Position numbers and translations under genes: made by a program. From contig JABAKD010000019.1 of the NCBI GenBank assembly GCA_012845835.1, positions 6,902,994-6,966,993 on the forward strand: a stretch of DNA of 64,000 nucleotides. The letters run 5' to 3'. The DNA is from Undaria pinnatifida. Its lineage: Eukaryota; Sar; Phaeophyceae; Laminariales; Alariaceae. Shown here in pieces: positions 3,590 to 55,882 of this stretch. The notes beneath the pieces were generated by a model. It did not search any database. It was given only the letters and a program-made list of their open reading frames with translations, and was not told where the DNA came from. Every line of letters starts with the position of its first letter. Within the stretch, counting starts at the first letter, position 1.

Positions 3590-3727
3590 TCAGCTCACGA
3601 CGCAGCAGCTGTTGGTCTTCCTCGCCTGCTTGTAGAACATCTTAGATTGTCGGCTCAAGTCGTCCGATCGGTCCACCAGCTCGTCGAGCCTTACTCCTCG
3701 TTCCAACACGTTGTCGATGGTTCGGTG
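3590..3727 (-). CDS. YKT6: YKT6 exon 6 (SNARE core, CAAX box and stop)
   Basis: 138 nt including the TGA stop. It starts [11 protein letters not shown], with the zero-layer Arg in LERG, and ends [10 protein letters not shown], a CAAX-type farnesylation motif preceded by a second cysteine. The acceptor is AACAG. A second, broken copy of the first two thirds of this exon sits 230 bp upstream in intron 5. Confidence 0.95.
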
Positions 3728-6281
3728 CTGTTTTCATCGTGGTAAAATTGATGACATGCGAGAGAAGAAAAAAGCGAACCGAACAAGTTGAGACGAAAAA
3801 AAAAGTTTGCGAAAAAACTAAGGGTGATAAATAAATACCAGGTAAATAATCATTATGAGTACGCTCGATTGTCGGCTCAAGTCGTCCGGTCGGTCCATCA
3901 GCTCGTCGAGCCTTAACGTGTTCCAACACGTGGTCGATGGTTCGGTGTTGTTTTCATTCATTGTCTTTTTGCGAAAAGCGAGCGAACAACGCAAGGCGTG
4001 AACCGTCAGGTATCGGGCGGGGCACCACGCGCAACCTCGCGTGTTGGCGTGTTTGGTGCATGAACAGACCGAAAGAACGAGAAAAATAACAAGAACGAGC
4101 GCAAGAACAAACAACACACAAGAAACACAACAAGAGCAACAACAAGGGCAAGAATACGAAACAGGAAAATAACGAAAACAACAACAATAACGAGCGCAAG
4201 AACAAAAAGAACAACAAAGATAACGAGAACAAGAAAAATACACGAGCATAACAAGATGAGCAACAAGGACAAGAAGAAAAACATGAGCAAGAACAAGCCA
4301 AACCAAAAACACTGAACTGTGAACTTGAGTAATAAGTGATTGAGCAACCGCAACTTGATGCTGCTCACCAGCACTTCCGTCGTCTCATCCAAATCGCGCT
4401 GAATCTTCGTGATCTTGTCCGCCTTCGCTGGATCCTGTTCGCGACGGCGGGTAAACGGTGCAACGGTAAAACGGGCAAACGAATCAGTTGCTCGCCTGAA
4501 AAAATGCCGTTTCATCAACTTTATTTTTGCCGTTTTTTTTCCCTCTTTCGTGCGTGCGTGTCCTCTCTCTCCACCCCTCTCTCACTTGATAGTCCGCGAT
4601 ATTTTCAATGGGAGCGGGAACCCGATGGCCTCGTCTCGGATCTCGGAAAACATTCGTAAGAAAAAAAAACAGTCCCATAATCCGTCTGTTGTTCTCCTTT
4701 TCGTGCATGCGTGTCCTGCCTCCTCCCCCCTCCCATTTAGCGTCACTTTCTGACTCGTTCAGCTCCTTCCACTCTTGGGTGTTCACTCCTCCCCTCCCTT
4801 CCGAAAGGGATAAGATTTCGCACTTTTTTTAATGTAATACCTGGTACTCCTATTAATAGTACGTGAGAAAAAATGTACTGGTATTGGGTGCCAACATGTT
4901 GGGGGGCGTCTCCACAGCAGTCGTGTAGCACACACTCTAAGACCACCCCTGAGACAAGCCGAATTAAGTAGTGTAGTCTTGCCTCTAATCTGTCTTACCT
5001 TTTACTACTGCGGTCCTATCCTAATTCCAAGTAATTTTTCGAGTGATACGTCGATTTACCTGGTCCTATCCCCCGAAAAGTAATAAACCGGACGGTCTTA
5101 CGACGTCCAAGCACAGCGACAAAACGAAATACAGGCGCGTTCTTATCATGGTGCCAGCATGCAGCACAGCGCAGTGCAAGCTATGCGCGTTTCTTACAAG
5201 CACTTGCATTGGACATAGACCGTAAAATCGTCGTCAGCTAATCCAGCAGCCCGGGTTGCTTCGTATGAAGGATGTTGCAATCGTCAGTTTATCCGTCAGT
5301 TTTTCTCTCGGAAGCACCACAAGGCTTCAAATGGGCACACCACGCTGTTAGGAGCAGGAACGGTGCTCCGTCTCGAAAGGGATGTCAATGGTCAATGGTC
5401 GAATGTCTAAGACAAGCAACAAAATGAGCATCCCCCCCGCCCCCACGCCCCCCCCGCTGTCTCTCACCTGATAGTCAGCGATCATTTTTTCCATGGGCGG
5501 GAAACTGATAGCCTCGTGTCGGATCTCAGACTGCCACTGGACTTGCTCGCCGTATTGTTCCAACAACTGCAAGAGAGCCAGGATAGGGGAGACGAGCAGC
5601 GGGAGAGAGGGGGGAAGAGGGCTGTCACCCGCGTGCAATACACGCGACACTGCCGTCCGCCGACTTAGTTTCAATCGTTTGGCAAACTGATTGAAAAAAA
5701 GTTCAAGCTGGCAAGAAATTTATGGCGTGTCAATAGTAGCTCGGTTGTAAAAAACAACGACTCGTCTGAACGAGCAACACAAAGAAAGGCCACCGGTGAT
5801 GGATACTCCATCTGAGTTCCTGCACGGTGTGGTTGTTGAAGGTTTGGGCTAACAACGTTTTTCCACATCTCAACATTTTTTCACGTCTGTGCATTGCGTC
5901 GTTTTCTAACTCGGCTTCATGTAGAACAGTGGCTTGCCTGCGTGAGCAACACAAAAGCCACTCGTGTTGGGTACTCCATATGTGTTTCTGCACGGTGCAG
6001 TGGTAACACGGGTTGGGTTAACAACATTTCCACATCTGTGTCGAGCGTCAATTCTAAGTCGGTTGCAGAACACATGTGACATATAGCACAAGAACTCACC
6101 TGAGTGAGCAACACAAAGGCCACTCGTGGTGGGTACTCCAGGTCCGCCGTCACCGTACCCGCCAAGCCGTCTTGCCGCATGTACACGTGCACGTTATAGT
6201 CTGCCCCAGTATAAAGCGGTCGCGGTAGTAGTAGTAGTAGTGGCAGCAGCAGTAGCAGTAGCGGTAGTAGTAGTCGTAGTC

Positions 6282-6312
<31 letters not shown>

Positions 6313-9300
6313 CAGCAGCAGTAGTAGTAGCGGTAGTAGTAGTCGTAGTAGTAGCAGTGGTAGTAGCGGTAGTAGCAGCAGTAGCAGTAGCGGTAGCAGT
6401 AGCGGTAGCAGTGGCAGTATCAGTATCAGTAGCGGTATCAGTAGCGGTAGCAGTATCAGCATCAGTGGCAGAAGCAACAGCGTAAGCGGTAGCATTAGTT
6501 GAAGTGGCAGTAGAAGTAGTAGCGATAGCAGTAGCAGTAGCAGTAGTAACGGTAGCAGTAGCGGCAACAGTAGCGGTAGCAGTAGCGGTGGCAGTAACAG
6601 TAGCGGTAGCAGTAACAGTAACCGTATCAGTGGCAGTACCGGTATTCGGTAGAGGTAGCAAGGAGTCGCCTGCCTATAAATGCGGTCAAAGTGGGGGTAC
6701 CGCCCCTAGCGTAGCCTCAAGTTAACCCTAGCCCTAGCCCCAATGTTTTCGCTGACCTTCGTGTTGTACGCTTTGCCTCTGGCCGGGTTGCGTGCGCTTA
6801 ACGATAGTCTTGCTGAAAAACGTACACAAATCCTTGATCCTGTCACGTCATGCACACCACAGGGACGAAACGGGGAGGTAAAGAGTCAGTCATCCCAAGC
6901 CCCAAGCAAAACGGACACGAGCTTCTCAAGTCATACCGGTAGTTGCGCACCTGGCGCACCAAAAACAGCACTCCCGAGTATGATATAAACACAGATGCTT
7001 TTTTGTGCTGGGTGGCCACTACGACTAGCCCATACCATTAAACTTTCGGGGTAGGTGGCCGCCACGACTAGCCCAAGCAGGAACATAGATACACGAGTAT
7101 TCAGCCAGGTTGGTTCGGGGCTTCTTTCTATTCCCTGCGTCACTCCCGTTGTGATAGTACTACTGTAACACGACTCCCAAGGGAAATCTTGTCGACTAAC
7201 CCATAAACTCGTTTGGGTTGGTCGGTGTTGAGAGTTACGTGTTTTCTCTATAGTTTGCACAAGGGTTTTGTCCCCCTCTTCAACTTGCGACACCCCCGAT
7301 ATTCCAAGCCGCCAACCTCAACCCCGAAGGCGAGCCTTGTTGACTATACAATCACGCAATTACCCACTATAAGGGCGTTTGCAATTCCCAAAAATTACGT
7401 TTGGTTGGAAAACATCTAACAGCAGTGTCATTCAAACCGACGAACTTCATGACCCAAGGCTAACCAACCAACGAACAAAAGCAGGTTTAGAAACATTAAA
7501 AAATGGCACGGAAAACATATTTCTGACCAATTTTTTCCGCTGCCTTTTCGTGGGTTAGGTTGGTTGGCCTTAGATTGTGACACCCGACGGTTTCAATACT
7601 ACTAGTAGTGTTAAATGTTTTCCTACCCAAGTCCTACCTAACCCACATTGTTATCTCGTAAAAACGTTATTGGGTGCTTTATGCGGTGGTTGGACTGAAC
7701 GTACCCCCGGCGGACACCCGCGCAGCCGCTCCCCTTCGCAACCCTCCACGCTCGTGCTGCACTAGATTCATTCTTCGTTTCCGCCCTACTTCAGTGTAGC
7801 CCTTCAGCCCTTGAATCGCCTCTCTTAGTATGTAGCCTATGATATCTCCCTTTGGCAAATCAACGGGGAAAATTGTCTGAAAAAAACGACGATTTCAGGA
7901 TCATCGACCACACCAAGCATCTCGGGGCGCTGGGGTAGAAGGTGTGTCCTATTAACACCTGCAATGTAAGGAGCTGCTCGACCCGCGCGTATCATCGGTC
8001 ATACCACGGCGAAGCCCTTTGAGCCGCGCTCAAGCCATAGAGACGTTCGATAAATAAGACTGCGCACCTCGATTTTGTTCGTGCTTTTCTGGCCACCCAG
8101 AGGGCTAACATAGTCTCGATAAACACAAAAAGTAGTCTCCGAAAATACAGGGTAGCCTCCAATGACGGGTTTAGAGCCAACCCCTACCCTCCAACGCGCT
8201 GGCCCTGTGTTATTATAGTCGTTACTGAAGCGACCATGGACCCTGGTACGTACTACGGATAATTATTTTTTATCTTGAAGAACAGGCAAACACGTTGTTC
8301 ATTGTGACCGACCGAATTAGCCATGGCCCTCTACCGGCCGCGCGCCGAGTGCCGACTACAGAAGAAGAGGAGAAACGGGGTGTACGTTCGATTGAGCCAC
8401 CAGCTACGCGTGTACGGGCGCGCGAGAATATGACGGCAGAGTTACACGAGAGGACAGCCCTACTGCTTTCTGCTGCAAACACGGAGATTCACTGTAAGCA
8501 GCATCAAGTACAAAACAAAAATGGGGCAAAAAAGCAGCCGCCTATGTGTAATAGCGAGTGATTCAAGTTACTTTGTGGGATGGTCTTACCAGCGATACGG
8601 GGGCTCAAAATCGAACACAGTCGTAGCGTAGAGGAGCTCGCCTGAAAAGTGGGGGTGTTTGATGTTTTTGTGCGATTTCATGCCTTTAACAATTGATCTC
8701 CGCAATACAGTACGGACAGAGTACGTGACACACTAATATTTTCGTAATTACTGCTGTGTGGCAGTTGAAAGTCGGTTGCAAGCTCTGTGCTTCTTGCTTT
8801 CTCTGCGAGCAACGCTTGCGTCACGCGCGACGAGCCCTCGTCCAAGCGGGTTGGAAGCCTTGGACTCGGCCCAAAGCCTCTAAAGCTACGTTCGTGGCGT
8901 TGCACTCAGCCGACAGCTGCTAAAGCGATAGCAAGCGTAGCCGTTGTTGGCAAAATGTCATCGATACCGCGCGCTCCTGTCATTCGCCATGCTATGGTAC
9001 ACGCTGCTGGCGGGCAGGACTAAGAAAGTGCCACGCCGATTTGCGGTGAGAAGAGGCAGCAATGATAGCAGGCAAGCCAGCGTCGGCGTTGTTGTAGGAT
9101 ACTGCAGTGGTGCGAATCTATTAATAGTGCCTGGTAGGGGTGCGTGTGCGTGCGTGTGTTTTTGTTGCGAGACGAGCGATGCGATGGGTTCACAAACGTT
9201 TTCGACCGAGCAATCCGACTGGCACATCCAGTCGAATCGACGACTTTTTCGACTGGATGTGCGTGCGAGTCGGATCGCTTAGTCGCAAAAATTTGAGTCG

Positions 9301-13411: not shown

Positions 13412-13605
13412 ATGGAGCTGAGATGGGTAGCGCTCGCCCTCACCGCAGCGGGGTTTCTGCCAAGTGCGGTGGTGGATGGCTTCTACCTGCCTGGCGTGGC
13501 CCCTGTCACCTTCGAGTTTTGCCTGAACGTGGAAGTGAAAGTTAACAAGCTCACCAGCGTGCACACGCAGCTGCCTCTGGACTACTACTCAATGCCTTTC
13601 TGCCC
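13412..13605 (+). CDS. TM9SF: TM9SF exon 1 (signal peptide, start of luminal domain)
   Basis: ATG begins [19 protein letters not shown], a signal peptide likely cleaved near VVDG, followed by [30 protein letters not shown] and PFC. These are the classic N-terminal nonaspanin motifs. Donor CC/GTGAGT, phase 2. Intron 1 is 4.5 kb and carries a 0.4 kb dispersed repeat and a 158 bp tandem duplication. Confidence 0.96.
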
Positions 13606-16600: not shown

Positions 16601-19600
16601 ATGATTTTAGCTCAAACCCAAAAACAAAAACACGGTCGTGGTCTCTCTGTAGTGCGGTTCCTGCCAGATGACAAGGCCCGCACCAACGTCGGACCCTGAG
16701 CTATCCCAGGATGGTGGGGTGCTCCGTAGGTCGAGTTATTGGCTCGTGACAATCGATTTTCACGGTAATAAAATGGGCCCCCCGCGGTGTCGTAAATCAG
16801 AGGTTATTTACGACATTTCTGTAGCAAATGAGGAATTACAACACCGATGTCGTAAATAGCATGAGCCGTTGAAAAATGGTGCCCCAAGAGTACCTCGTGA
16901 TCCGTGCATAAACAAATCGAGGTTCATAACCTATTGGTAATGTGCTGCATGCGTTAAGGTACCACACTGTCGCGGGACCACGAGTAACTGGTTCAACTGA
17001 TACTGATTCCCTATTCTAGTGGACGCGGTGGTTGATTTTGTTTTCGCTGGCCTGTGCCCACATGCCGACCCCAAACGACTTGTCCTTTTGTGTTCGTATG
17101 GTGTGCCCACTTTGATGACCGCCCCGTGACGAGCCAATTCGGGTGGGTCTTATCTCTGCTACCGTTGCTGTGACACTTCTTTTGCTACTGCGAAAATTAT
17201 CATTTTTCTTTAATTTGTACTTTTTTTCGGTGACGAGCCGATTTCCCTGGTCTTATCTCACGCATTTTTGAACCGGATGATCTTAAAGTGAGTACACCAC
17301 TGTGTTCGTATTTATGTATATACGGCGTAGCGGGGTGTCCCGTGTTGGTTTATCCCTGAACAGCAGTATCATGATGTGCTTGTGAACGTGCGGGCGGCAC
17401 GGCTGTGCTAATGATGGCATAGAGAAGTGTTGTGTTTTTGTTGTTGTGATATTTTGCTACCGTCGCGACGTGGTTTGCTCCCCAAAGCTGGACAGAAGCT
17501 CTTGCGTGATACGATCAAGATAGTATAGCCGTCGCAGCGACGAGGGTCTCGCGCTGCAGAATATTTGTGCAGAGTATCTTTCTTTAGCTTGTGGGGCGTA
17601 TTTTGCCGGTCTATGACCACGGACGTACAGTGTAAATGCAGTGCGACTTGAGCGATCTCGAAGGAGATCCGTCCCTTTTTTCTGGCGCCATGTAAGTTAG
17701 AAACGCGTATGTGCTGTTATTATTAATAGTATTGAGTTATAGTGGGTACCCCGATTGTAGGAGCACCCAAGATAAGAGCATTCGAGAATTAACCCTTTCA
17801 GCACCGCAGTCCCGACATGGGAACGAGACACTTCGAGTTAATCTAGGACTGACTCTGTTTTGGAGCTGGAAATGGGTGAAGAGCGGTTAAATGGGCATGC
17901 CCCGCCTCTACTAAAAACTTCATGTTGCTCACTACAGACAAGAGCAATGTGTAGTTCATGAGCGCTTGTTTCGGCTTGTCGTGGGGTGCTCTTTAAAAGG
18001 GTTACCCGCTACTCTTTTGTAGCAGATCTAGGGGAGCGATTATTCAGTGTCGTCCATCTTCATCAAACCCTTCCTGCCGTGCTGCTCTCTGTCTTTGGTC
18101 TTTTTTTTCTGGGTTTTATTTTGCAGGCCAGAAGGCGGTGCGAAAATGACTTCGGAGAACCTGGGGGAGTTTTTGACCGGGGATCGCATCGAAACGTCCC
18201 CGTACAGCATCTACATGCAGCACAACATCTCGTGCTCTGCTCTCTGCCGGGTGGGTGCTTTTCCGTTGTCTTGGTTACTGCGTTTAGTCGTGAGGGCAAA
18301 GATGGCAGAGCTGTCGCTCGCGTGGAAGGTGTTTGTAACTGCCGTGAAGTTTGATGCGTTGCGCAAAAGCCATCTCGAAAGGGGACTCTACTTTTCCCAC
18401 GGCGTAGATTAGGAACTCGCATTCGCTCGTAGTAATGTGTTTCTGCTTACTCTGTCCCCTTTGTGATACTTATGTACGTACCGGGTACCATATGATATTC
18501 TGAATGATCAGTAACAGGTATCAATACCACGTTTCACCCCCTATATCATGCAGATATACAGCCACCAGTGTGATGTTATATGATAATCTGTCTGTGTTTT
18601 CGAGATGATATCTAGGAACCTCTATGGTGTGTTGTACGTGTGGAACGTTTCATTTTTTGGTGTGTTTCTTGGCTACATGTAGATGTTGAGTTGGACAAGG
18701 GTGTGACCCGACCGCGACGAAGAACCTCGCATACATTCGTTCCTACAGATGCACAGATCCTACAGCACGATTGATCTGTCCAAAATGATGCAGATGGACC
18801 TGCATATGCTTTATTTATTATCCGTATATGGGGATCTGATCCATCCGATGTGTGGAATGTTTTGTGTTTCTCACTATTAATAGGATATTTTACCCAGCGG
18901 CCCCGGCTGCGTTATGTGTGCTGTTGCTGTAACCGCCATACCTGCTAGCTTTTCGCCCTTGTGTTATTTTTCTCGTCTGAAGTTCCTATAGGAGGACTCA
19001 CGTAGTTTTTTTTTTGTCGTACATTGACATCTGTATATTGGCGGGTAGCGTTTCAGTTTTTAGTTTTTCAAGAGGGGGGAGAGGGGGGGGGTAATTAACA
19101 ACTTGTCGAAAGAGGGGCGCGATATCTGTTCAAAATGATGCAGATCGATTCATAGAGGTCCAATCCGCTAAACGTTTGGAGTGTTTGGTGTTTGGTGTTC
19201 ATTTTCACTATTAATATTAACTTTGCTAGCTGAAGCTGGACATGGATGACGCCGACTCGATCAAGCAGCTCGAAGACTTGCTCCTACAGATGCGTACATC
19301 CGCTTTAGACCCTGTATGATGTATATGTCCAGCATTTTGCCGATCTATCCAGGATCTATGCGACTTGCCCGAGGTATGAAATATTTCGTGGTTTTGGGGT
19401 ACTGTTGCTGTCGCAATTTATAGGTGGAGCTGGACGAGGATGACTCGGCCATGATGAAAAAGGTCGAAAACTTGAAGAAGGCTGTGAGGGGAGGCTACCG
19501 CCACAACTGGATCATCGACAACCTTCCTGCTGCGTCGCTCACGGAGAACGAGGTGAAAGCGGTGTCTGCTTTTATTTTTTTTCCCATAATTTTACGATGT

Positions 19601-22600
19601 TTACTATGTTTCCCTCCACGCTGCTTGCTACCTGTCGCTAGCAAAGCATGGTCATACTAGGGCATTAATTAGGGGTTCGGCATGCGACGCAAGGCCTGTT
19701 AAAGCCTCCTGGAGGGCCGCCGGAGGCGAAAACATATATTTTGAAGAATGAAGAATAGTGACTCCCTGCTAATGCCAACGTCAACAGGACTAAGACGTTC
19801 AGCCTTGTTCTACGCGCGGAAACTGTATAACCCGCATTAAGGGAGACAAAACCAGACATCTGTGGAATTCAGTATGCATTAAACGGTTAATAATTGTTAT
19901 AGTGTGAGTTAAACGGTTGGAGTGGGCTACTTGGGTCTACTGGGTTCGTACGCAAGTTCGTGTGTTCTCCCTGTGTGTATGTGGCAGGCCAGCGGAGGTC
20001 CAGCCCAGGCCTGATGCTCGGGTTTTTAGTGCTGTCGAGTCATGATGGAACATGCGGTGGACGCCGATCGCTACTGTTGCGAAGTGCGAAAAAATGAATA
20101 TATGCGCGATAGCATAGGGTCTGGCTAGTTTGCTCAAACGAGCTTCGATGTGACTCTGCTCGTTCTTGCTTATTAAGGTGGGAAGGTAGGTGGCTGCATG
20201 CTATCCGAACCCAGCACAGGCCATACGGGCTGACACGATATACCCATCCATGTAGTGGTTATACGCCTGAAATCCATGGAACAAAAAATCCGCCGACTGC
20301 GATTTAGAATAAAAAGACCCGCCGGAAAACTGAACACGAAATTTTGCCGACGTCCTGCGATTTAGAGAAAATGACCGCCAAAAACAATATCGCCTGCGGC
20401 GAAAAAATAACGCGCACCAATAATTTTAGGCTGCGGCGAAGAATGTTGAGCGCCCTAAATCGCGTGTTGCGCAGCGCGCAACCTGCCTCGCGGCGACTGT
20501 TGCGGAAAGCGGTTACGTTGGCCCCACATGTTGCGCCCGCGCAACAGCTAATTAATGCCCTGATTAATACATGTGTGGCGACCGTTTTTGGTATTTTGTT
20601 TTTATTTGGTTTATTGGTGTCACCCTCCCCTCCGTCCATACCGTCCCATACCTTACCCTCTCTTGCTCTTCCTCCCCTTCCCTCTTCCCCTCCTCTCTCC
20701 CAACCTCCCCCCCCCCTCCCCCACCCCAAACGCGGTATTTCTTGTTTGGCGTCATCAGGCGGGTGGAACGGAAACGTACTACTCTCAGGGTTTCCCGGTG
20801 GGCGAGTATGACGCGGACACCGGAAAGGTGTATGTCAACAACCACGTCCACATGGTTGTGGACTATCACCCTATGGAAATTTCGGAGGTGAGGTGCCGTC
20901 CCTTTATCGTATACCTGTACATACTTAATGTCACTCTGTAGAGGGGAGTAATCGGTATGATACCACGGTATGCACATCACGTATTGACAGCTAGCTTGCC
21001 AAGATGATCTTCGACGAAGTCTTCGATCTCACAGCTGTACTTGTAGGGTATTTTTTATGTTTTTCAATGTGCTTGTGGGACGATAGTCCCGTAGCAGGTT
21101 GATCTCGTTCTTAGATGGGTGTGTGGAGACACGCCGAAGTGGGTCATGTGCGTAACCGCACGCTCGAGGGTCAGCGATGAAGGAACACCTCAGAGTGCCC
21201 TCGAGGAGCCAGGATGGCCTTGAAGGATTATAGTGACAACGAGGCGGTACGATCTAGGGGATAGGGTCTGGTATCCACATATTGAATAATTTATTTGCTC
21301 GGGATTCGAGACGACGATATAGGGGGAGGGGGTACTACATTTGTTAGCTTATCAAGCCTTTTCGGGATTCAGGAAAACGATATTTCCACAAGCTGTACGC
21401 GAATAAACACTTACACTTGTACAATTTACGATGGTCGTGGACTGCCACTGCAACCTATGAAGATTGGAGAGGTTTGCCAGCCACTTAAAGTTGAAGGTCG
21501 AGGGCTCTACAAGTACAGTGTTGTCCTGCTGTGCTGCCGCTGCTGTTGATCTCCGTAATTTTGAGCTCTGGTGGCAGCACTTAAGGCTTGGGCTCTACTC
21601 TAGTCGTTACCGGTGGAGCACACTCCCCAATGCGTCGTGTTAATAAACACCTCACCCCGCTGCGTCTTTTTTGTATTGCCATTTTCCCGCGGCGTTCAGC
21701 AACCCGCCTCGAGAGTGGTGGGCTTCAAGGTGGAGCCGTTTTCCGTGAAGCACAGATTCCAGTCGCCCAACGCGTACTGGTCTGGAGCGCCGGCGGACAT
21801 GCCTCCCCTCAGCACCTGCGACAAGGACAACATGGTTGACCCCGTCAAGTTCTCGAAGGTGTGTCAAGTGTCAATGGGACGCGTGGTACGATAGGGATAT
21901 GGAGGGGTACCCGGTTTATGAGGGTGCATAATACGAAAAAATGATGTCAACATTAACCCGACGTAAGAGTGAAGAATTGATGAAAAGTTTCCAAAAAGTC
22001 TTGAAACTGGCGAAAAATCAGAAAGACGACAGGTGAGACCTTCACAATGGCACATAAAAGATGTGTGCAAAATTGAGAATTCATGGTACGAATAAAAAAA
22101 CGGCGTAGACATTCGCCGGGAAATATATATATATATTTTACGTGAACCAGCTTGTATTAGTTTTAGCTTTTGTCCCTCTCCATACGGGTTGTATAGTATT
22201 GGTACGCAGAATGATTAGATTGTAGACCGAAATCGCCCTTGGTAAAATTATCCTCTTTACCCTAACGACATCTAGAGGAGTCGTATTTATTCCAAAAGCA
22301 ACACATCTGTAAAACCGCGCGACCGTAGTATCGCGCAGCTTGCAAGGATGAGTATCCACCCTTAAATTAATCGAACTCACCGCTGACGTATTTGAAACAA
22401 TTTTTACAAAGTATCCCAACAATCCCCCCGTTCCTCCGTGCCCTCGGCTTCGGACAGGATCATGCCCTCATGCAGGAGGTAGCCCCGGGAGAGACGATCA
22501 TCTTCACCTACGACGTTTCCTGGAAGGAGTCCGACACACACTGGGCCAGCCGCTGGGACATTTACCTCACAATGAACCACGCCGTGAAGAACAGGGTGGG

Positions 22601-40560: not shown

Positions 40561-40741
40561 TAGCCTAATAGGCGCCCCGTGCTGTATTATTAGTAATAGT
40601 AGAGGGCACATGTGTATTGTACCACCCGTGAGTCCCGGTTGGCTCCGACCCCCAAGAACGTATTTTGTCCCGAAAAAATGGCTCGTGCTTCCTTGGAGTA
40701 AGCCACAGCGATTCCCTGCTGGGAAGAAGAAGCCGGGGGAG

Positions 40742-45660: not shown

Positions 45661-45701
45661 TACCCTGTTCTTAGCGCGTGTCCTGTGTTGTTTTACCTTA
45701 C

Positions 45702-45818
45702 CTCTTCTGCTACCCTTTTCCCTGCGTTGAAGGCACCCTCCATTAGCCCCGCGTGATCCCTGTCAGTCTCCGCAGCGGACAACCACACCCTCGGATGCCC
45801 GCCCGAGGTCGCGGAGCC
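45702..45818 (-). CDS. Amine oxidase exon (flavin loop near the C-terminus)
   Basis: Acceptor TTGACAG, 39 codons: GSATSGGHPRVWLSAAETDR, HAGLMEGAFNAGKRVAEE. Matches the family's G.L.FAG.ET.....GYMEGA..SG.RAA, except that the usual FAGTET is LSAAETD; the Glu and the GLMEGA helix are kept. Donor GAG/GTAAGG, so at least one more exon is expected. Confidence 0.9.
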
Positions 45819-48800
45819 CTGTCAACCGCAAAAACATGTGGGGGGGGGGTAGTGGAGGGGGGGCGTTAATGTAGGGGTCCCGTGGCAGTTTCAGAGAACA
45901 AAAATGGGTAACTGTTCCCGCATCTTCTCGACACAACGGCATTATACGGCATTATACGTATGAAGGGCATAATAGGCTGTAAAATATATACTTGGGAGGG
46001 GAGTTGGAGGGGGCTGGGGGTGGTTGGGGGGGGTTGGGGGGGGGGTGCTATCAGATTCCACCCCAGCGGCAGCATACATTAAGACATGATAGATTGCGAA
46101 ATACCGTATACTTGGGTACGGGGGAGGGGTGGTTTCAGAGGCCGAGTTGTCAGTTTCAGGAATAACAGCTGAGCATATGTCTCAACGTACAGTAGTGGTC
46201 CCTCTGTAGCGGCAACCGGCACTACGCCGCATACTGCCACAACTGGTTGTTCCCATCTGTGCCAAGCGATTTCACAGGCACTGTAACGGGCAACCGGCAC
46301 AAAAAAGGAACTTCAACTGTACACACCTGTGCCAAACGATTTTACAGGCACTACTTGTATGGCAACCAGCACTCAACCAGCGCTATAAAGGAACGCCTAC
46401 TCTACTCACAAAGGGCACCCTCAGCTCGGCGCGTCCCATAGAGTCGTGCCCTCCCCCCGCAGCGCCTCCGTTGCCACTGGTGAGCGGCTGTTCGCTCCAG
46501 CGGTGAGAGGAGAATGTCAAAGGAGATCCGCCCTCCGCCCCAAACATGCGCGTCAGCTGCTCCAACACCTGTGTGTGATATCATACAGGGAAGACAGCAA
46601 CAAAAACACTCAACTTTATAACGCAAGAAACTAACATTTGATTGAGAAAAGGTCATGTGGGTCAGCTGCTGCTGCGTCAACATCTAAGAGGGAAAAAACA
46701 AAAAGGTCAAGTTCGTTAGTCAACTCCCGCAACACCTAGATGGAGGGGACAAAAAACAAAGAACAAAAAGCGAGGTCATCTGCATCAGCCGCATACTGCA
46801 ACACTTAAGACAGAGGGGGGAAATACGAGGTAGCGTTATATGATGTCCCCGTGTCCCCCTCTCTTTGCTGCAGAGGCGTTACTGTTCCGCTCGACGGGCA
46901 ATTCCTTATTCTTCGGCCGAGGTGCATTGTTTTTGATTTTCCCTGCAAGGGTCTTGGCTTGAGGAGTTCTATAACCCACCGACAAAACTGGGCTTGATAA
47001 CAACGAAAGGGCAACGCGATGCACAATGGCATATGCCCTAGCCTAGGTATAAAACAAGAAAAAAATGAACAAAAAAGAATAAAAAAAAACGAAATTCCGG
47101 CGATATTTTGGGTTAAGAAGTCCCAAAATTCCGAAAATATGTGTTTTCGCCAAGAAAATGCTACTTTTATCGTGTAGCAGGCGTCATGTCTGCGTTACTA
47201 TCATACCTGCTGCAACACCTCCTGGAAAAAAAAAAAGGTCTTGGTGGGTCAGCTACTGCAACACCTATAACATAAGGGGGGGAAAACGAGGTCGAGTCGC
47301 CCTTACGCTTTATACGAAGCTTCGATTACGCTAGTTTTTCGTTTTAAGCAAAGATCGGGCGTTCGTAAGAGCACAAAAGTAGAACAATTGTTTGCGTTGG
47401 AGGCCAACGAGTTTAGTTGGGGGGGGAACACGGTAGCGTATCTTTGTCATCTTCCTTGGCCAGCAAGAAACATAAAAAAATCAGCAGGGTTTCCACAGGG
47501 CTTGATCCGATCCGCGGGCAGGGCCAGGAGATGTTGAAAATGTCATGGGTTTAGGCGGGTAGGGTAAAGTCAGGCCACGTCGGGCCAGGAGCTTGAAAAA
47601 AAAAAAAACGGGTCAGGTCGGCTCACCCCGACCCGACCCGACCCGACCCGACCCGCGAGAAATAGCCAGATCCGCTGAAGGCCCAGATAAGCAGAAAGAA
47701 AGAACTGAAAGTGAAACTGCCTATTAATAGTCGTGCATCAGTGACGCTCCGTTCCGTGAGGTGGAAGGAAGCTGCAGGCCAGGCTGGTGGTAGCCCCGGT
47801 CGATGCGTATATTTTCGTTGAGATAATTGCAGAAACATTCTCAACAGTTTTTGTAGAGCATCTCATCGTCGAACAATTCACAGAAAGAGTGCTTGCTGCA
47901 GATGCAAAAAGGGCGTGGTGGCAAAAAACACGCTTGGCATGCGCGAGAGAAACAGCACCGATCGTCGCCATTTACTCTGCCGTGCATGCCACGCATGCAC
48001 ACACTAAAATGCATGCTACTAACAGTACTAATAGTACTAATAGTACAAACAAAACGGTAGAGGTCTGCGCACCATTTTTTCCTGAGGCCCCTAACCGTTT
48101 GAGGAGGTCTACTTGTCTTTTACCGCCTTCACTACTGGAGACCCTCTTTCGGGGACAAAATTACTTGGAATTAGTATAGGGAGGGATTTTGGGGCTCGAA
48201 AGGGGTTAAAAGGCAATAACGTATTTTTTCTTGTGGTAAACTGAAAGAACAACTCGATGAACAGACCCATGGACTAGCCATAAGAAACAAATAGTGTTAC
48301 ACTGTGAGTGGTGCAAAACAAGGAAATGGCGCATTCCGACAATTTTGGGATAACGCCTTCACAACAACTGGAAACCCTCTTTGGGGGACGAAATTACTTG
48401 AATTCAGTATAGGGAGGGATTTTGGGGCTCCAAAGGGGGTAAGGCAAAAACTTTTTTTTCTCGTAGTATTCCGAAAGTGCAACTCGATGAGGGAGGGATT
48501 TTGGGGCTCCAAAGGGGGTAAGGCAAAAACTTTTTTTTTCTCGTAGTATTCCGAAAGTGCAACTCGATGAACAGACCCATGGCCTAGCCATAAAAAACGA
48601 AGAGTATTAAAAAACAACTAGGACTATACGTAGTGGTGCAGAACAAAAAATGGCGCATTCCGACGGTAAGACACAATAGCATTCATTACACGTAGTGGTG
48701 CATAGCAAGAAAATGGCGCATTCCGACGATTTTGGGTTAACGCCTTCACAACTGGAAACCCTCTGTCGGGGACAAAATTACTTGGAATGTGGTATAGGGG

Positions 48801-51800
48801 GGGGTTCGGGGCCCTAAAAGGGGGTCAAGGAGCCCCGTCGTTCAGCGTTGTTTTCAGCCAAAAAGTGGTGTTGTATACCTTAATATCTCCATCGTAGCGC
48901 GCGCCACCAGCACCCGCCGGCCGTGCTGAGCGAAAGAGAGCTGATCGAAAAATGAAAAATCAGCGCAAGGACACATTCTACGATAAAGGTGCCCCATTGT
49001 TTGTTTTGGGAGGTCCTCGCGGGAGAAGCTGCATGTTTCACCTTAAAAAAAGCGTTGTTCTTTTTTTTCAACAAACTGAAGTCGCAATCCAATGAACAAA
49101 CAAACCCGTGTCGCAGCAATACAAACCCCGTCATTTTGAAGAAAAAAAAAAAAGAATTATTTTTCAACCATTTTGGGTTAAGGAACTTCGTCACTCCAAA
49201 AAAAAAAAAGGGTCGAAAAGAGCTACTACAGTGCTTTTATCGTAGCACGCGTCCAAGACATCGTGGCCTTTTCCCCAAACGCGTGATTACCTGTAGGCGA
49301 AGAATGTCGTCGACAGGCGGCTCTCTGCCGCCGATGCCGAACACAAAGCCGCAGAGCGCGTGGGGACCCTCACCGCCGTCCGGGCCGGACGAGTCGTATA
49401 ATTGTTGGATGGGTCCCCCCCCTGAGCTCAGCGCGTTGCCACTCATCCCTTGTTCCCTCCAGAACGGCCGCGGGTACGTGATCAGGACCTATACATTGAT
49501 TCGCCGAGAGAAAAACAAAACACAGGATATTACGATACGTGCAAAATGCGAGTTTTTTTTGGGGGGGGAGGGGGGCGGCGCCAAAAATGATGGTCAATTT
49601 TACAAAGCGCGCTGCGGATGACTAGTAATGGTTTGTTTTTTTTTGGCCCGCGTACCGATAGAAGGCATGCATCGTACGCCGGTCTTTTTTCGTCGGATGC
49701 TTCCTCGCCCCCTCGCGAGATCAATTCATTGCCACCCATCCCTTTGTTCCCTCCAGGACAGGCGTGGGCACGTTACCAGGGCTTATCTACGTTGTTATTC
49801 GTTATTGGAGGAAAGAATCGCCCGTTATTATATACGAGTGCCAAATCTATACTTGTTCGGGGTCTTCATGCGTCAGGTCTAAGTTCTCACGGGTCGCGTT
49901 GGTTGAGGGTGACTCGACGCGACCCGTGAGATGTCGAACACCTCCTGATCCGACCCGATTCGCCTCGCAAGACTTTGGAAACCCCCTAACCCCGACCCAC
50001 GGCGGGCGGGTCGTGACCAGTGAAAAAAAAACTGAAAAAATTGACGGCGCCAAAAAAAACAGCGGAACATTTGTGGTTCTAGGATAAGAAAATGAAGGCC
50101 TGCTCCATTCAAAGACCGACGGAATTGACTGCCTTGTACGTTGTAGTCGTGGCCCTCCATTTAAAAGGATAAAATGAAGGTTTGGGGGTTTGGGGGATCG
50201 GCAAGAGGCGAGGAGGAGGAGGAGGGGGGGGTGGGGGGTGGCAGATGCACACCCACGGCGTGAGGATGGAGCCTGGACGCGGCATAAGATTTCGGGGTTA
50301 AAGTAGATGGACATGTAATGGGAAGGAACGGTGGAGCAGGGAACGGTAGTAGAAGGTGGATTACAGCGATACTACCGTAAGCCGCAAGTAGGGACAGGGG
50401 GGAGGTAGGTTTCGTGCATATATTTCCTGTCTCGTAGGTTTTCCCCTGGTTTGCTTCTCGTACTTTTTGGGAACGTCTTGTGATTAATATGAGGTATCGA
50501 CGTTGAAGCTCGTGCTGCACATTCCATTGCCGGGTAGCAAACGTGATCATATTGGAGGTTTGTTAAGGAGCCCCGCAATTACTGGGTTACCTTCAATAGG
50601 GCATAAAGTTAGTTTTTCCATAGCCAAATATGCTGTTGTTGATGTTCACCCCTGACAACATCCGTAGAACAAACGAGCGGCCGGTGTATCACGCAACTTG
50701 CAAAGATGAGTATCAACCCCAAATATATCGAACTCACTCTGTTTAGAAGTTTATTTTTCAAATATAATGATCCATGAGGCCAGATGCAGCCGTTCCAGCA
50801 CATTTTTTCCGCAGGGGAAGATGGATGCTACAGGATTGATATCGAATACCAGTGACAATAATCCATGGGTATCATCGGTAGTGTTCTGCCGTCTGCTAAG
50901 AAACATTTCTGACAGGCAACGAACGTTCCTATAGGATGGGAGCTACGATAGGAGGTACCTAAAACTTTTCGGCTAGAAAGAAAAAACCGAACCACGGGAC
51001 TTCTTAAACCCACCATCGTCGGAAACTGCGATAAAACAGTTGCTGCATTTTTTTTTGGTTGTATGTACACCTGCAGCCCATGGGATTCTAACTAAAATCG
51101 TTTTAACAACGTCAGTCGTGAGTTCGACAAGTTTGGGGTCTGCTTACCGGGTGGCACTTTCGTACGTTCTCCATATTTTTTTTCAACATTTTCTGAGTGT
51201 AGAGCTCTCTCGAGTGAAAGGCCGTAACATGCAGCCAGCCAGCTTCCACGACAACAACTCATCAGCTGGTTGATCAGGACCGATCGTTTTGTAGGAGAAA
51301 AAACACACACCGGTCGTCGTCATTATGTTTGCCCTCCGACCACGTACGTAGCGCAGAAGCCGTTCCGATATGGACCGAATATCCTTCGGTAAGGCAGCAG
51401 TATCTCTTCTATGACTCTCGGCCAACCAGTCCCTACAATTTCTCCTCCCCACGCCTTTTCGGTTATTGGCTGTAACACAGTTTATCCTATTCCTCATCAA
51501 AGTTCCATCCCCAGGTCATTTGGCCGCAGCCCTTTGGCTTCTTCAATCAACTGTGTCGTCGGAGGAAGCATAATGCGATAGTGGACCTACTGTAAGTTTC
51601 AACAGGCCCCTCCAGTTGAGGAGTTGGATCACAATATCTCACACAATATCTCACACAATATCTCACACAATATCTCACACAATGTCTAACACAATATCTC
51701 GCACAATATCGCACACAATATCGCACACAATATCGCACACAACATCTCACACAACATCTCACACAATATCTCACACAATATCTAACACAACATCTCACAG

Positions 51801-54800
51801 AATAGCCCACACCATATCTCACACATCTCACACAACATATCACACAATATCTCAAACAATATTTCACACAATATCTCACATAAAAAAACGAGCGTGAAGA
51901 ACCCTCGAATGAACAGTCTCATGGCCTCAGCGAATGCAACGAGCAGAATCAACTAATGTATTTGCCTTCCAGCAAAGTGCAGTGCACGATTCATGCTGGG
52001 ACGCCAAAAAAAAACGGGCACACGATGCTCCAAGTACTGCCACTCTCATCCCCAATTAATTATCCTTCCCAGCGTACGCTCCCTTCAATATGCACTACTA
52101 TTTTACCTCCGTTAAAACATAATTATTGTACACACGAAATCATCTTTGACTTACACATTATTCTATCGAATCGCCTTGCGTCCTACATCCGCATCGGTTA
52201 CAGGCTATCGAATTAATGGTGACCTCGGGGGAAGCATGCAACCATTGTGCATGGTGCACATAAGTCGCCTGACGGTGATTGGTCGCCTGAGGGAAGAGCT
52301 CAACATCTCACCCAAAACACTAGCGTGGAGAGAGAACCCTTGCATGAACAGTTAGTCGCGGCCTAGCATACGCAAGAACAACACTGAAAAAAATACAAAA
52401 TGGTGTTCCAACGATAGAGGCGTTTTCTGACGTTTTCGTTCCTGAAAAGACGAGGCTGCCTGAGCCCATAATCGTCGGCATGCCATTCTTTTTTTTTCAA
52501 AAGTTAATTGTTTGTATACCTCGGCCATGGGCTTGCCAATAATCGGATTGCACTTTTTTTTAGTCTACCCCAAATCAGTTTTTTTTTTTTTGTTAATAGT
52601 ACCAGGTATGCAGGTCCTCAAGCGAAGTGAGGAGCCTCATGCATAAGGAAAAACCCGGTGCGCTTCTATCGTAGCACGTGTGTCCAAAGTTGTAATGGAC
52701 GGTGTCCCAGCCATATCAAGCACGTCTCCGGTTGACTAACTAGTTGATTAGTATCATACTGCCAGTCATAAATATTTTGTCCCAGGCGCCACCTGCAGCA
52801 TGGCACGCGTCGGTGACTAGTATTAACAGTACTTGGTTTTCTTGCTGGTAACCAATGCTACGGTGTGCGGGGTGGGTTACTTTCGGGGCGTTGCTTTTCA
52901 GTCGCTCGGGGTCACTCGCACGAGTGACCCCCCTGATCCATACCGTCAAAGGCTTTCGTCCTGTTTTAATGTGTCGGTATGAATTCCCAATGGGAAGGCT
53001 AGCTACACTGCGCCAAGCAAGCCGCCTACCGTGTTTTTGTTCGCGAGGTACAGAGTCACTCGTGCGACTGGTGGAAACCCAGCAGTGAAAGGGGATAATA
53101 ACATCCCGCACCCTTGATCTTTGTGCAGCATCTCATCATACCTTGGTTGTTTGCGCCATCCAGGTCGGAGTGGCCTGGGCAGCCTTGGCCAGGTGAGGCG
53201 GCATGCTCGGCTCCCACGTCATGACCGGAGGCAGGGCAAGCCGCGGAGGAATAGCTAAGAACACCGCACCGGCCCGCCAGCTTTTCTTGTCGCCTGCCTT
53301 TTAGAAGGGGAACAAAAAAAAACGACGGTTGTATAAATCAATTTACTGTTGTTTTCATCTGTTATCCGACAACGTGCAGCGTTAGTGTCAACAAATAAAA
53401 GACATGATGAAATAACCGAAAAAATCCAGACGACGAAAACTAAAAGCGTAAAACGTAAAAACATGGTCTCCGGCCCGGAAACGTGTGCTAGAACATGCAG
53501 ATCATTCCCGAAAGCATCTCGATCATCAAGGGGGGATCGGTGATGTGTCCGACGCGTGGGTTCAACTGTCAGCAGGAAGTGTAGTACGTAGTCGACCCAC
53601 ACCTGCACACCGTCTAACCGAACCGCACCAGCATGGGTTGCGGACAAGGAGTGCGTTAGGGTACTACAGCAGAATAGAGGAGCCGATGACGCCATTTGTA
53701 AAGGTATCAGAGGGTACTAGTCCACTGGACTACAACTGGTGAAGCGGTTAATCGATTACGTACCCAAACCAAGCCCGACGACAAAAAGCCGGTAGGCGGC
53801 GTACTACGTAGTCGAGCCACACCTGCGCCCCGTCCAGCCCATACTGGGCAGTTTTCTAGGTGATGAGCCCCGCGGGTCAGAAACTGACGCGCACGTCGCG
53901 ACGAGAATAGTGGCAGTTTTTGCCAAAAACGGTTCTGTTTTGACGAGTGAGCGCTCCTTCACCTCAGCAAAAGAAGCTACCAAATACCCGTATCGTTGGA
54001 CCAATATCTTGCGTTTTATTACGCTACTTCCCACCAAGGGATTGATCTGATTGTCCATTGGATTGTGCTTTGATGTATTTTCGAGGATAGTGTTCGGCGG
54101 GGTGGAGAGCTCCCCAAATGAGCAGCATCAGAAAAGTTAGGCGCTAATCGCTATCCTAGCGCGCGTCAACTATTCAATCTAAGCGCTAGTACAGTAGTAC
54201 TCATTGTTCAGTGCTGCGGTCGAGGCAGAAGTTTAAGGGCGAAAGGGTGTCTAAATGGCGGGCTTGTCAACCGGGGAACTAAGGAACTACCAAATACCAG
54301 CATATATATACATATGGAACACCGTTTGTGCTTCCTATGGTATTAACTGTACACCTAGCCCATGAGACTCTCCTTTGTCAATGTTAAGTGAACACTGTCA
54401 AAATGGAGCTGTAGGTGTGGTATGGAATGCTTCTGAGTTTGTGGATTTTCGGAAAAACTCAGGTTCACCCCTCTACCGCCGTGGCGTGTATCTCGTAGCA
54501 TAGGCAACGTCGACCCTCACCTGCACACCGTCCAACCGAACTGCGTCGTCATGGGCTGTCGATATATGTTCGACGGTGCAGTCGAGCTGCACGTTCACCC
54601 CCTTGGTTCGAGCGTGGCTGGCCAAGGCATTTGCGATAGCCGCCGCCCCGCCCTCAAAGCGAACCTTGGCCGAGTCGAACGGTTGCGGAGTCCTGCCGAT
54701 AGTTGCAGACGCGTACAGTACGGGACACCAAACATGAAACAGGGCAGTAAGAAAACGTGGGTGATCTTGACAGGAACATGATAAATCCGGGAGCTGTTCT

Positions 54801-55882
54801 ACTGAAGTTAGTATAGAACAACGCACCCTCTCCTAAATAGGAAACCCAGCCCGGGTCAATATTTGTGTTTCTTATTGGGTGTCCTGTATTGGTGTGCTGT
54901 GAGATACCATCTACTGCTTTGAAGTTCGCCGCAAGTGGCAGGGACGGCAAGCAAACCCAATAGCTCTATCTAGCCGCTACCACACAAGTAACACCCGTCT
55001 ACGCATGTTAAAGTCAAATAGCTGGACCGGACTGGACCGGAACTAGCCGGACCGGACCCATACATTACCGTACCGTACCTGATCGTGCCCCACCGCACCG
55101 TGCCAGACCGGACCACAAATCGGACCACGGACCGGATCAAGGACCGGATCACGAACCGGACGACGGATCGGACCATGGCCTACACCGCGGACCGGACCAC
55201 AGACTACACCGCGGACCGGGTCACGGAACACACCGCACCTAGTGAACGAGTTGCCATAGTCATTGAGGTTGATGCCAGATTGGACCACAAATCGGACCAC
55301 GGACCGGATCAAGGACCGGATCACGAACTGGACCACGGATCGGACCATGGCCTACACCGCGAACCGGACCACAGACTACACCGCGGACCGAGTCACGGAA
55401 CACACCGCACCTAGTGAACGAGTTGCCGTAGTCAATGAGGTTGATGCTATCGTTGTGCTGAGGGAAATATGTCACGTATCGTGCCCTACCGTACCATACC
55501 TACCGGATCGGCCCGGACCCGACCGCGGACCGCACCACGTACCACACCGCACCTAGCGACCGGGTTGCCGTAGTCGACAAACTTGATGCCATCGTCATTG
55601 CTGAAAGAAAACGTCACGCACCGTACCCTACCGTGCCGTACCATACCGGACTCGCCCGGACCAGACCGCGGACAGGACCACAGACCAATCCTCGGACCGG
55701 GCATACTGACCATACTGCGGACTGGACATCATGGACCCCGCACCTAGTGATCGAGTTGCCGTAGTCAACGACGTTGATGCCATCGTCGTGCTGAGGGAAA
55801 GATGTCACGCCCAGTCTTTGCGCCAGAGCCGGAACCTCGTGGTGGGAGGAAGTCCAGCACCACGCGCCGCCAACATCAACAC
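45702..55882 (-). CDS. Flavin amine oxidase (FAD-dependent, COG1231-like), 5' and 3' ends not established
   Basis: Minus-strand exons: 55882-55744, 54692-54521, 53297-53142, 49488-49291, 46568-46410 and 45818-45702, giving 313 residues in one phase-consistent chain. Motifs in order: DVGGAWCWTSSHH (flavin-contact region after the FAD dinucleotide fold), KVRFEGGAAAIANALA, AGAVFLAIPPRLAL, PTWMAQTTK, PRPFWREQGMSGNALS, QLYDSS, VLEQLTRMFG, and the C-terminal flavin loop RVWLSAAETDRDHAGLMEGA then FNAGKRVAEE. Known members oxidise primary or polyamines, with FAD as acceptor, releasing H2O2. The N-terminal 60-70 residues with GxGxxG must lie upstream; I do not find them to 64000. The repeat nest at 57-63 kb may separate them, or the gene may be broken. 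Substrate unknown. Confidence 0.88.
46188..46400. mobile_element. CACTATAG-type MITE abutting an amine oxidase splice donor
   Basis: Begins TACAGTAGTGGTCCCTCTGT, has 'gccaagcgatttcacaggca' twice (the second as gccaaacgattttacagg), and ends near 'ccagcgctataaagga', about 9 bp below the exon that ends at 46410. The element fills a third of this intron. Confidence 0.75.
46410..46568 (-). CDS. Amine oxidase exon (LEQLTRMFG block)
   Basis: Acceptor ACACAG, 53 codons: VLEQLTRMFGAEGGSPL, HRWSEQPLTSGNGGAAGG and ELRVPF. Corresponds to L..LFG..A..P....W..E..T. Excellent donor TTT/GTGAGT. Intron 591 bp, mostly a MITE. The exon's 5' edge is echoed about five times upstream. Confidence 0.88.
46650..47275 (-). 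repeat. Exon echo array: about five copies of the 46568 exon's 5' edge
   Basis: The true edge on the plus strand reads 'gtcagctgctccaacacctg'. Degenerate copies with the acceptor side are near 46659-46682 (gtcagctgctgctgcgtcaac), 46718-46737 (gtcaactcccgcaacacct), 46784-46803 (gcatcagccgcatactgcaac), 47211-47226 (ctgctgcaacacct) and 47251-47270 (gtcagctactgcaacaccta). Each is followed by an A/G-rich stretch, as the true intron is. All lie in the intron just upstream of the exon in transcription. Confidence 0.75.
48110..48860. repeat. Cluster of 'GGGGACAAAATTACTTGGAAT' repeats with an 80 bp tandem duplication
   Basis: Four units near 48125, 48365, 48490 and 48745 share 'actggaaaccctct', 'gggacaaaattacttggaa' and 'gggattttggggctc'. 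The second is immediately duplicated: 48412-48490 and 48491-48570 are identical except for one extra T. Related single copies are at 33435-33500 and 37160-37195. It lies in an amine oxidase intron. Confidence 0.85.
49291..49488 (-). CDS. Amine oxidase exon (YPRPFWREQGMSG block)
   Basis: Acceptor TGTATAG, 66 codons: VLITYPRPFWREQGMSGNAL, QQLYDSSGPDGGEGPHALCG, FVFGIGGREPPVDDILRLQ. Matches Y..PFWRE.GLSG, DAS and the GFV segment. Donor CAG/GTAATC. A broken copy of the first 100 bases lies upstream at 49695-49795. Confidence 0.92.
49695..49795 (-). pseudogene. Exon echo: broken copy of the PFWREQGMSG exon 5' part
   Basis: On the minus strand it gives LVTCPRLSWREQ, then, after a one-base shift, MGGNELISRGGEE, against LITYPRPFWREQGMSGNALS SGGGP in the true exon (written in parts). 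It lies 210 bp upstream of that exon in the same intron. Confidence 0.85.
51310..51545 (-). repeat. Inverse, diverged copy of the 40742-40997 family
   Basis: On the minus strand: 'gcggccaaatgacctgggg', 'aggataaactg', 'gaagagatactgctg' and 'accgaaggatattcggtcc', in the order seen at 44180-44395. Confidence 0.65.
51620..51885 (+). repeat. 12 bp satellite (CACAATATCTCA)n
   Basis: About 22 units of 12 bp with single-base variants (atctca, atcgca, atctaa). Because 12 is a multiple of three, both strands stay open, giving ISHT and RYCV repeats that are not proteins. Lies in an amine oxidase intron. Confidence 0.95.
53142..53297 (-). CDS. Amine oxidase exon (VFLAIPPRLAL block)
   Basis: Acceptor CTAAAAG after a T-rich tract, 52 codons: AGDKKSWRAGAVFLAIPPRL, EPSMPPHLAKAAQATPTWMA, QTTK. 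LA.PPRL and TPTWM are family hallmarks. Donor AAG/GTATGA, phase 0. Confidence 0.92.
53590..53847 (-). pseudogene. Exon echoes: two copies of the AVRLDGVQ exon end with donor
   Basis: 53645-53590 reads GAVRLDGVQ-like with GTGTGGGTCGACTACG beyond the splice point (the frame has one TAG); 53847-53800 reads YGLDGAQ followed by GTGTGGCTCGACTACG. The true exon has AVRLDGVQ/GTGAGGGTCGACG. Both lie in the intron directly downstream of that exon, and both keep the CAG/GT. Confidence 0.88.
53690..53790 (-). repeat. Diverged tRNA-related SINE-like fragment
   Basis: 'gatgacgccatttg', 'gagggtactagtcc' and 'gcggttaatcgattacgtacccaaacca' match parts of 39985-40330 and 59140-59570. Confidence 0.5.
54521..54692 (-). 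CDS. Amine oxidase exon (RFEGGAAAIANALA block)
   Basis: Acceptor TCGGCAG. TPQPFDSAKVRFEGGAAAIA, LASHARTKGVNVQLDCTVEH and AVRLDGVQ: the substrate-domain entry and the V.L...V..I beta strands. Donor CAG/GTGAGG, phase 0. Its last 30 bases with donor are copied twice in the next intron. Confidence 0.9.
54775..54900 (+). repeat. Dispersed repeat, copy of the 11745-11835 family
   Basis: 'ataaatccgggagctgttct', 'actgaagttagtataga', 'cgcaccctctcc' and 'tttcttattgggtgtcctg'. Same orientation as 11745-11835. Lies in an amine oxidase intron. Confidence 0.75.
55020..55740 (-). repeat. Exon echo tandem array: copies of the DVGGAWCW exon 3' half plus GGACCG-rich spacers
   Basis: The exon end near 55744 (plus strand 'cacctagtgatcgagttgcc', 'gtagtcaacgacgttgatgcc') recurs at 55550-55620, 55405-55477 and 55233-55278, each followed by GGACCG/GATCACGG-rich spacer. 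Two units have a period of 172 bp. All three echoes keep the donor (CTAG/GTGCGG) and the minus-strand frame FVDYGN / LIDYGN / NDYGN. Confidence 0.92.
55744..55882 (-). CDS. Amine oxidase exon (DVGGAWCW block)
   Basis: Acceptor CTTGAAG, enters in phase 1. VDVGGAWCWTSSHHEVPALA then QRLGVTSFPQHDD and VVDYGNSIT. Corresponds to D.GG.W.......L...LG...F.QY..G in the family. The phase-2 donor AG/GTGCGG joins the next exon's G to form Arg. Three degenerate copies of its 3' half form a tandem array downstream. Confidence 0.85.

Follow-up and report, generated by a model that had tools for sequence, protein, structure and literature searches.

In human and mouse cells, 3′ overhangs that are filled in by Pol alpha-primase and then joined by end joining give rise to small tandem duplications (Schimmel et al. 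2021, PMC8355091). According to the cited passages of that paper, no other kind of short insertion is as common in the human genome as small tandem duplications, a statement made on insertions below 100 base pairs (bp). Repair-mediated proximal duplications were described by Pace et al. (2009, PMC2671141), who counted 824 human events with a method that registers only insertions into transposons and with tandem copies excluded; in the passages cited here, only four of the donors were partial exon/intron segments. In this work, we analysed 64,000 nucleotides (nt) of the kelp Undaria pinnatifida, hereafter the window (contig JABAKD010000019.1, positions 6,902,994 to 6,966,993; G000:C25:6902994-6966993). 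A first-pass annotation of the window had proposed that the introns of three genes, YKT6, TM9SF and an amine oxidase, hold degenerate copies of the nearest exon edge together with its splice site, which we call echoes. Our comparison of the window with 51 further regions indicates that exon-edge echoes are very probably left by frequent short tandem duplication in the kelp nuclear genome, a process largely indifferent to the sequence that it copies. In the top-ranked open-licence PMC literature, a scope outside which most subscription papers fall, echoes of exon edges were not described for brown algae.

Local direct repeats in the sampled DNA

The scanned genome comprised 511,146,479 bp in 68 contigs. 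The published U. pinnatifida assembly, obtained from PacBio and Hi-C data, is described with 511,280,173 bp in 114 scaffolds, a guanine-cytosine content of 50.14% and a scaffold N50 of 16,510,065 bp (PMC7058681). When 822 segments of 120 nt from the window were compared with the 2 kilobases (kb) on each side (score ≥ 120), direct copies were found downstream for 10.2% and upstream for 10.1% of them. Inverted copies accompanied 2.3% on each side, and far stretches matched 0.2–0.6%. A copy on either side was present for 69 of 302 intergenic segments and for 61 of 415 segments of the three genes, the latter count including the oxidase exons and taking approximate limits for that gene. Given these rates inside and between genes, it is normal for the sampled DNA to contain local direct copies. 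Over the window and the 51 regions, they covered 33,505 of 225,562 unmasked bases (14.9%), compared with 1,777 (0.8%) for inverted copies.

Self-comparison of the window and 46 regions (250 kb) at offsets up to 1.5 kb returned 193 direct and seven inverted pairs. The offsets of the direct pairs were densest at 100–200 bp, with 95 of 193 at 100–300 bp and a median of 291 bp, and at 1.5–3 kb the direct pairs dropped to the level of the inverted ones. The two copies were 60–90% identical in 166 of the 193 pairs, which is far below the identity of falsely duplicated sequence. Moreover, the PacBio long reads named in the cited description of the assembly (PMC7058681) should span these distances. 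We found nothing in favour of an assembly artefact and regard it as extremely improbable.

Many of the pairs retain the signature of a tandem origin. Among the 192 direct pairs with offsets of 60–700 bp, the copies were less than 40 bp apart in 51. In the spaced pairs, the spacer shared homology with the sequence on the far side of the other copy in 54–63 of 122 testable cases, depending on the cut-off, compared with 3–5 of 111 controls; 19 pairs had too little flank for this comparison. Altogether, 105–114 of the 192 pairs were demonstrably tandem. Recent tandems with units of 172, 126, 113, 79 and 55 bp were present in the window, and one of 370 bp in an outside region. In 11 two-copy cases with a period of at least 48 bp and identity of 84–100%, the matched length minus the period was between −7 and +3, a range whose lower end was fixed by the search, which required a match of at least 0.9 of the period. 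These recent cases thus appear to have needed no long pre-existing homology.

Duplicated units also recurred in series. A CCT exon (L028) was followed by seven decaying copies of its end, in steps of 78–87 nt (~ 83 nt) and with a first offset of 190, and another CCT exon (L013) by three decaying copies. Several units of the L028 array carry a donor-like site.

Exon edges outside the window

Outside the window, exons were represented by Pfam matches from TM9SF paralogues, CCT chaperonins, class I transfer RNA synthetases, RPB2-type RNA polymerase subunits and MCM helicases. In total, 51 regions (215,774 bp) from 16 contigs supplied 111 exons, and copies were sought within 1 kb at a score of at least 110. 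The sample included six TM9SF matches (eight loci were cut from 32 matches, and two of the eight lay inside the window), 30 of 57 CCT matches, 30 of 34 synthetase matches and all 13 RPB2 matches, and was supplemented by MCM helicases (21 of 32 matches) and by another 11 CCT or synthetase matches inside the fetched stretches. Kinesins (130 matches) and myosins (75 matches) did not enter the sample.

A downstream copy accompanied 14 of 105 testable exon 3′ ends, and an upstream copy 9 of 103 exon 5′ ends, so that 23 of 208 edges had a copy in the expected direction (toward). Copies in the wrong direction (away) were found for 1 of 108 3′ edges and 3 of 101 5′ edges, i.e., 4 of 209 (Fisher p = 1.1 × 10⁻⁴). 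The directional rule of the first-pass annotation, by which 3′ edges are copied downstream and 5′ edges upstream, was thereby borne out, and it extends beyond the window to conserved exons on 16 contigs. Such a rule arises because a contiguous unit over an exon 3′ end can place exon sequence only downstream. Inverted copies of exon edges numbered 0 of 208 at a score of at least 110 and 1 of 208 at a score of at least 90, and matches elsewhere, in far controls, gave the same two counts. These figures agree with the claims that echoes are always direct and that each belongs to its own exon. An origin from introners or transposons was disfavoured, as the far controls matched only 10 of 3347 background segments and none of the 208 exon edges, and non-adjacent introns of the window scored at most 89.

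The directional result also bears on the capture of nearby DNA during break repair by synthesis-dependent strand annealing, in which a piece of exon edge would be copied, with a spacer, into a break in the intron. In distance (a few hundred bp) and length (~ 100–160 bp), the copies resemble published proximal duplications, and 59–68 of the 122 testable spaced pairs revealed no spacer homology, so that some of them may be captures rather than tandem copies. Nevertheless, capture would be expected to hit either side and either strand, at odds with the counts toward, away and inverted at the exon edges and with the overall excess of direct over inverted pairs, and the recent copies are adjacent. 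We therefore judge capture to be an unlikely source of the echoes as a whole.

The implied idea that echoes reflect a property of exon edges or introns did not survive comparison with the surrounding DNA. Non-coding segments of the same loci had direct copies in 418 of 3347 per-side comparisons (12.5%), with 49 inverted copies and 10 matches elsewhere, and the toward rate of 11.1% at exon edges was not different from this background (p = 0.59). At a threshold of 90, the counts were 28/208 toward, 5/209 away and 552/3347 for the background; at 150, they were 21/208, 4/209 and 269/3347, respectively. Bootstrapping over whole regions gave a 95% interval of −0.059 to +0.034 for toward minus background, and 0.050 to 0.138 for toward minus away. 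At least one echo was present in 18 of the 111 exons, spread over 10 of the 16 contigs. A first run with 79 exons (toward 12/77 and 7/72, away 1/77 and 2/72, background 12.1%) had given the same picture. The exon edges sampled are no more duplication-prone than other DNA; echoes are legible there because exons are coding.

A process specific to exon edges would make splice junctions hot spots, for example through R-loops or co-transcriptional breaks, and would tie intron growth to splicing. The echoes do span the junction, and they recur several times behind some exons. However, neither inside nor outside the window did edges exceed the non-coding background, and the intergenic DNA of the window was richer in copies than the three genes, which makes such a process very improbable.

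Echoes in the three genes of the window

The YKT6 and TM9SF models were rebuilt by tblastn with brown-algal homologues and by inspection of splice sites. YKT6 lies on the minus strand and has six exons (12477–12368, 6839–6757, 6200–6100, 5566–5468, 4434–4369 and 3727–3590). TM9SF, on the plus strand, has 12 exons with the start codon at 13412, and the best named matches of its protein were those of Ascophyllum nodosum (77%) and Ectocarpus fasciculatus (79%). All 16 introns of the two genes are bounded by GT-AG, and both reading frames are uninterrupted. For the amine oxidase, edges were taken at the positions given by the first-pass annotation, without a full gene model; those at 55744, 54521, 49488 and 46568 each carry matching splice motifs. 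Every YKT6 and TM9SF edge was aligned, unmasked, against up to 3 kb of the adjacent intron and evaluated with 25 dinucleotide shuffles and a score floor of 88. In a stricter run, simple sequence was masked and queries were shorter, and the 3′ end of TM9SF exon 7 was mostly masked there. TM9SF exon 9 ends at 29715, and the window edge searches and the dinucleotide yardstick rates reported below used 29709, 6 nt early.

Ten of the 32 YKT6 and TM9SF edges passed the unmasked search, and eight of them are exactly the edges that had been named in these genes. We read the other two as low-complexity matches, namely YKT6 exon 1 in A-rich DNA and the 5′ end of YKT6 exon 3 at a GTA microsatellite. YKT6 intron 2 is mostly filled by a GTA/AGTAGC microsatellite (6225–6638) that begins ~ 25 nt from the exon 3 acceptor. 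In the masked run with short queries, four of the 32 edges were strong (≥ 120) and three weak (77–93); the maximum score was 268 in adjacent introns, 89 in non-adjacent introns and 84 for inverted matches.

In YKT6, the 3′ end of exon 3 (6100–6200) has two echoes, both on the minus strand like the gene. The first, at 5918–5978, scores 206 (82% identity over 61 nt; shuffle maximum 73) and has lost the donor GT, and the second, at 5748–5810 (73% over 63 nt, score 152), has lost its donor as well. The 3′ end of exon 4 (5468–5566) recurs on the same strand at 4560–4647 with a score of 224 (74% identity over 94 nt; shuffle maximum 73) and with the donor GTGAGA kept. The echo of the 5′ end of exon 6 (3590–3727), also on the minus strand, occupies 3865–4005 and scores 409, compared with at most 84 in shuffles, at 80% identity over 144 nt; its acceptor AG was lost.

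In TM9SF, all echoes are on the plus strand. The 5′ end of exon 3 (19424–19552) was found again at 19172–19280 (64% over 111 nt, score 165), where the acceptor AG is kept, and at 18636–18736 (score 143), where it is lost, the shuffle maximum being 79–86 for both. The echo of the 3′ end of exon 4 (20759–20887) at 21431–21491 is weak, with 64% identity over 64 nt and a score of 93 that compares with at most 75 in shuffles. Two echoes follow the 3′ end of exon 7 (24102–24263), one at 24367–24404 (79% over 38 nt, score 118) with the donor GTACGG kept, and one at 24461–24540 (score 107) without it, against a shuffle maximum of 88. The 5′ end of exon 10 (30518–30658) has an echo at 30265–30366 that scores 132 (65% identity over 105 nt; shuffle maximum 86) and in which the acceptor is lost. 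For exon 9 (29493–29715), the 3′ end recurs at 30083–30192 (74% over 110 nt, score 259) with a donor, GTATGC, kept. Moreover, its own donor lies in an exact 19-bp tandem duplication at 29703–29740 (2.0 copies, 100% by Tandem Repeats Finder). The two identical donors, 19 nt apart, are the freshest echo of all and were absent from the first-pass annotation. Splicing at the second donor would lengthen the exon by 19 nt and cause a frameshift.

Three of the four oxidase edges yielded echoes in the numbers that had been reported, all on the minus strand. The 3′ end at 55744 has three, at 55357–55476 (80%, score 360, shuffle maximum 89), 55493–55624 (73%, score 297) and 55185–55277 (77%, score 252), each with the donor kept; the last lies inside a 172-bp two-copy array (55101–55447). 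The 3′ end at 54521 has two, at 53591–53646 (80%, score 181) and 53811–53852 (76%, score 110), both with the donor kept and with a shuffle maximum of 90. The single echo of the 5′ end at 49488, at 49690–49846 (68%, score 261, shuffle maximum 82), has lost the acceptor; two further candidates for this edge scored 87 and 85, below the applied cut-off of 95. At the 5′ end at 46568, about five copies had been claimed, and here the claim failed. Only one or two borderline candidates were found on the minus strand, at 46654–46723 (score 91) and 47244–47289 (score 84), both of which fell short of the best of 40 shuffles when 2.7 kb were searched (98) and exceeded it when 700 bp were searched (81); with a shorter query, the second scored 83 against a maximum of 77.

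Other features of the window stand apart from these echoes. A 12-bp minisatellite (CACAATATCTCA) with ~ 21 copies occupies 51630–51880, between the oxidase edges 54521 and 49488. Several three-copy families of direct repeats, spaced by ~ 0.7–1.4 kb, lie at 60012–62913; one has a TATATATAGC motif, and they may be a small family of mobile elements. Scans of the window with Rfam (gathering threshold) and ARAGORN returned no match. On another contig, two kinesin loci ~ 29 kb apart (G000:C2:16034374-16037637 and 16063521-16066784) had identical scores in the three listed matches of each, and are probably a recent segmental duplication.

Fate of the copied splice sites

The retention of splice sites was counted in a set hand-picked from exons already known to carry an echo. 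The count excludes L063 (donor ambiguous), C18, C20, C31 and TM9SF exon 4 (under the score floor), and uses L008, L070 and L080 for the 3′ edge only. The donor GT was kept in 28 of the 37 donor-spanning echoes. In the same alignments, exon dinucleotides were kept in 66% of cases overall and in 72% within the last 12 nt, neither of which differs from the donors (p = 0.30 and 0.72, respectively). Dinucleotides at intron positions 3–14 were kept in 51.5%, and here the donors were higher (p = 0.004). We regard exon dinucleotides as the fairer yardstick, since constraint acts on the exon copy too. The acceptor AG was kept in 6 of 15 acceptor-spanning echoes, compared with 65% for exon dinucleotides (p = 0.057) and 40% for intron dinucleotides (p = 1.0).

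The donor excess over intron dinucleotides speaks for echoes being kept by selection, whether as functional decoys, as alternative splice sites or as mutually exclusive exons. We read this excess as the consequence of two-sided divergence of intron sequence, but it could mean maintenance, and no other result points that way. The comparable retention of exon dinucleotides and the loss of most acceptors argue against selection, which we consider very unlikely. Echoed splice sites drift like the adjoining exon sequence, without a clear sign of selection. The reservoir of decoy sites envisaged by the first-pass annotation is present as sequence, with no clear sign of upkeep.

Origin of the echoes

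The first-pass annotation attributed the echoes to tandem duplication across the splice junction. This mechanism fits the direct orientation, the directionality, the homology across the whole unit in many pairs and the serial arrays; the implied special role of exons finds no support. We propose that units of ~ 20 to ~ 400 bp are duplicated in tandem, whatever their sequence. A unit straddling an exon-intron junction would carry the exon end and its splice site into the adjacent intron, while splicing would continue at the site beside the full exon, as the continuity of the coding sequence suggests. The copy would be tolerated and would decay neutrally, and the exon would stay constrained. Some units would then duplicate again into arrays, such as the one followed furthest, with up to seven decaying exon ends. 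Each such duplication adds length to the intron, in line with the earlier suggestion of a mode of intron growth. We observed duplication as a standing pattern, from which its rate is inferred.

The molecular source is probably either slippage or the repair of staggered breaks, whose ends would be filled in and then joined, since the recent junctions are without long overlap and published work in other organisms points in this direction. The 2007 work of Messer and Arndt is reportedly to be grouped with small tandem duplications from staggered-break repair.

Several points weigh against tandem duplication as we propose it, beside the spaced pairs without spacer homology and the donor excess over intron dinucleotides. 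The YKT6 exon 4 echo lies 883 bp from its source in an intron of 1033 bp. Four wrong-way copies of exon edges do exist. The outside edges are ends of Pfam matches rather than proven junctions, and some of the matches cross in-frame stops and may include intron; the exons come from five protein families and are clustered by gene. As exon copies diverge one-sidedly and stay visible longer, the equal rates at edges and in the background may mask a deficit of duplications, or selection, at the edges. Finally, the set of recent junctions amounts to 11 cases.

A bolder extension would be that the introns and genomes of kelps owe much of their growth to short tandem duplication, which would plant decaying exon ends, partly in arrays and with sites resembling donors and acceptors, beside a sizeable minority of exons (18 of 111 here), with the spliceosome ignoring them through position or exon context and some becoming alternative sites. 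We put this forward tentatively, as a possibility that we would not favour at present.

Comparison with known systems

Exon-derived copies have a known ancestor, and so the age and fate of each echo can be read from its divergence, which makes echoes a record of intron lengthening. They are also natural tests of how the spliceosome chooses between similar sites ~ 20–900 nt apart. If other brown algae prove equally dense in such copies, short tandem duplication would count, beside transposons, among the leading sources of their non-coding DNA. In fly regulatory DNA, local sequence duplication is said to be a source of neighbouring similar sites (PMC3188502); transcription-factor sites are duplicated there, and splice sites in the kelp.

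The duplications at staggered breaks described in the cited passages of Schimmel et al. (PMC8355091) resemble the kelp copies in being direct, adjacent and short; they have little or no homology at the join, as may also hold for the 11 recent kelp cases. They differ in size, as those insertions are below 100 bp, whereas the kelp spacings are commonest at 100–300 bp and the copies occupy ~ 15% of unmasked bases. Proximal duplications, in the passages cited from Pace et al. (PMC2671141), are likewise local, ~ 150 bp long, and cover exons, partial exons and splice sites. Unlike them, the kelp copies are largely tandem and affect about one in nine sampled exon edges, and the two-sided placement expected of the vertebrate proximal capture was not seen in the kelp. 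A further parallel is the gain of introns by tandem genomic duplication as outlined in the review PMC3443670, where a short tandem duplication also creates a second splice site. In that case, the duplication lies inside an exon and yields a new intron, whereas in the kelp it affects an existing junction and lengthens the intron already there. On the basis of that outline, the tandem duplication within exons by which introns are gained is the sister of the process that leaves echoes at exon edges in U. pinnatifida.

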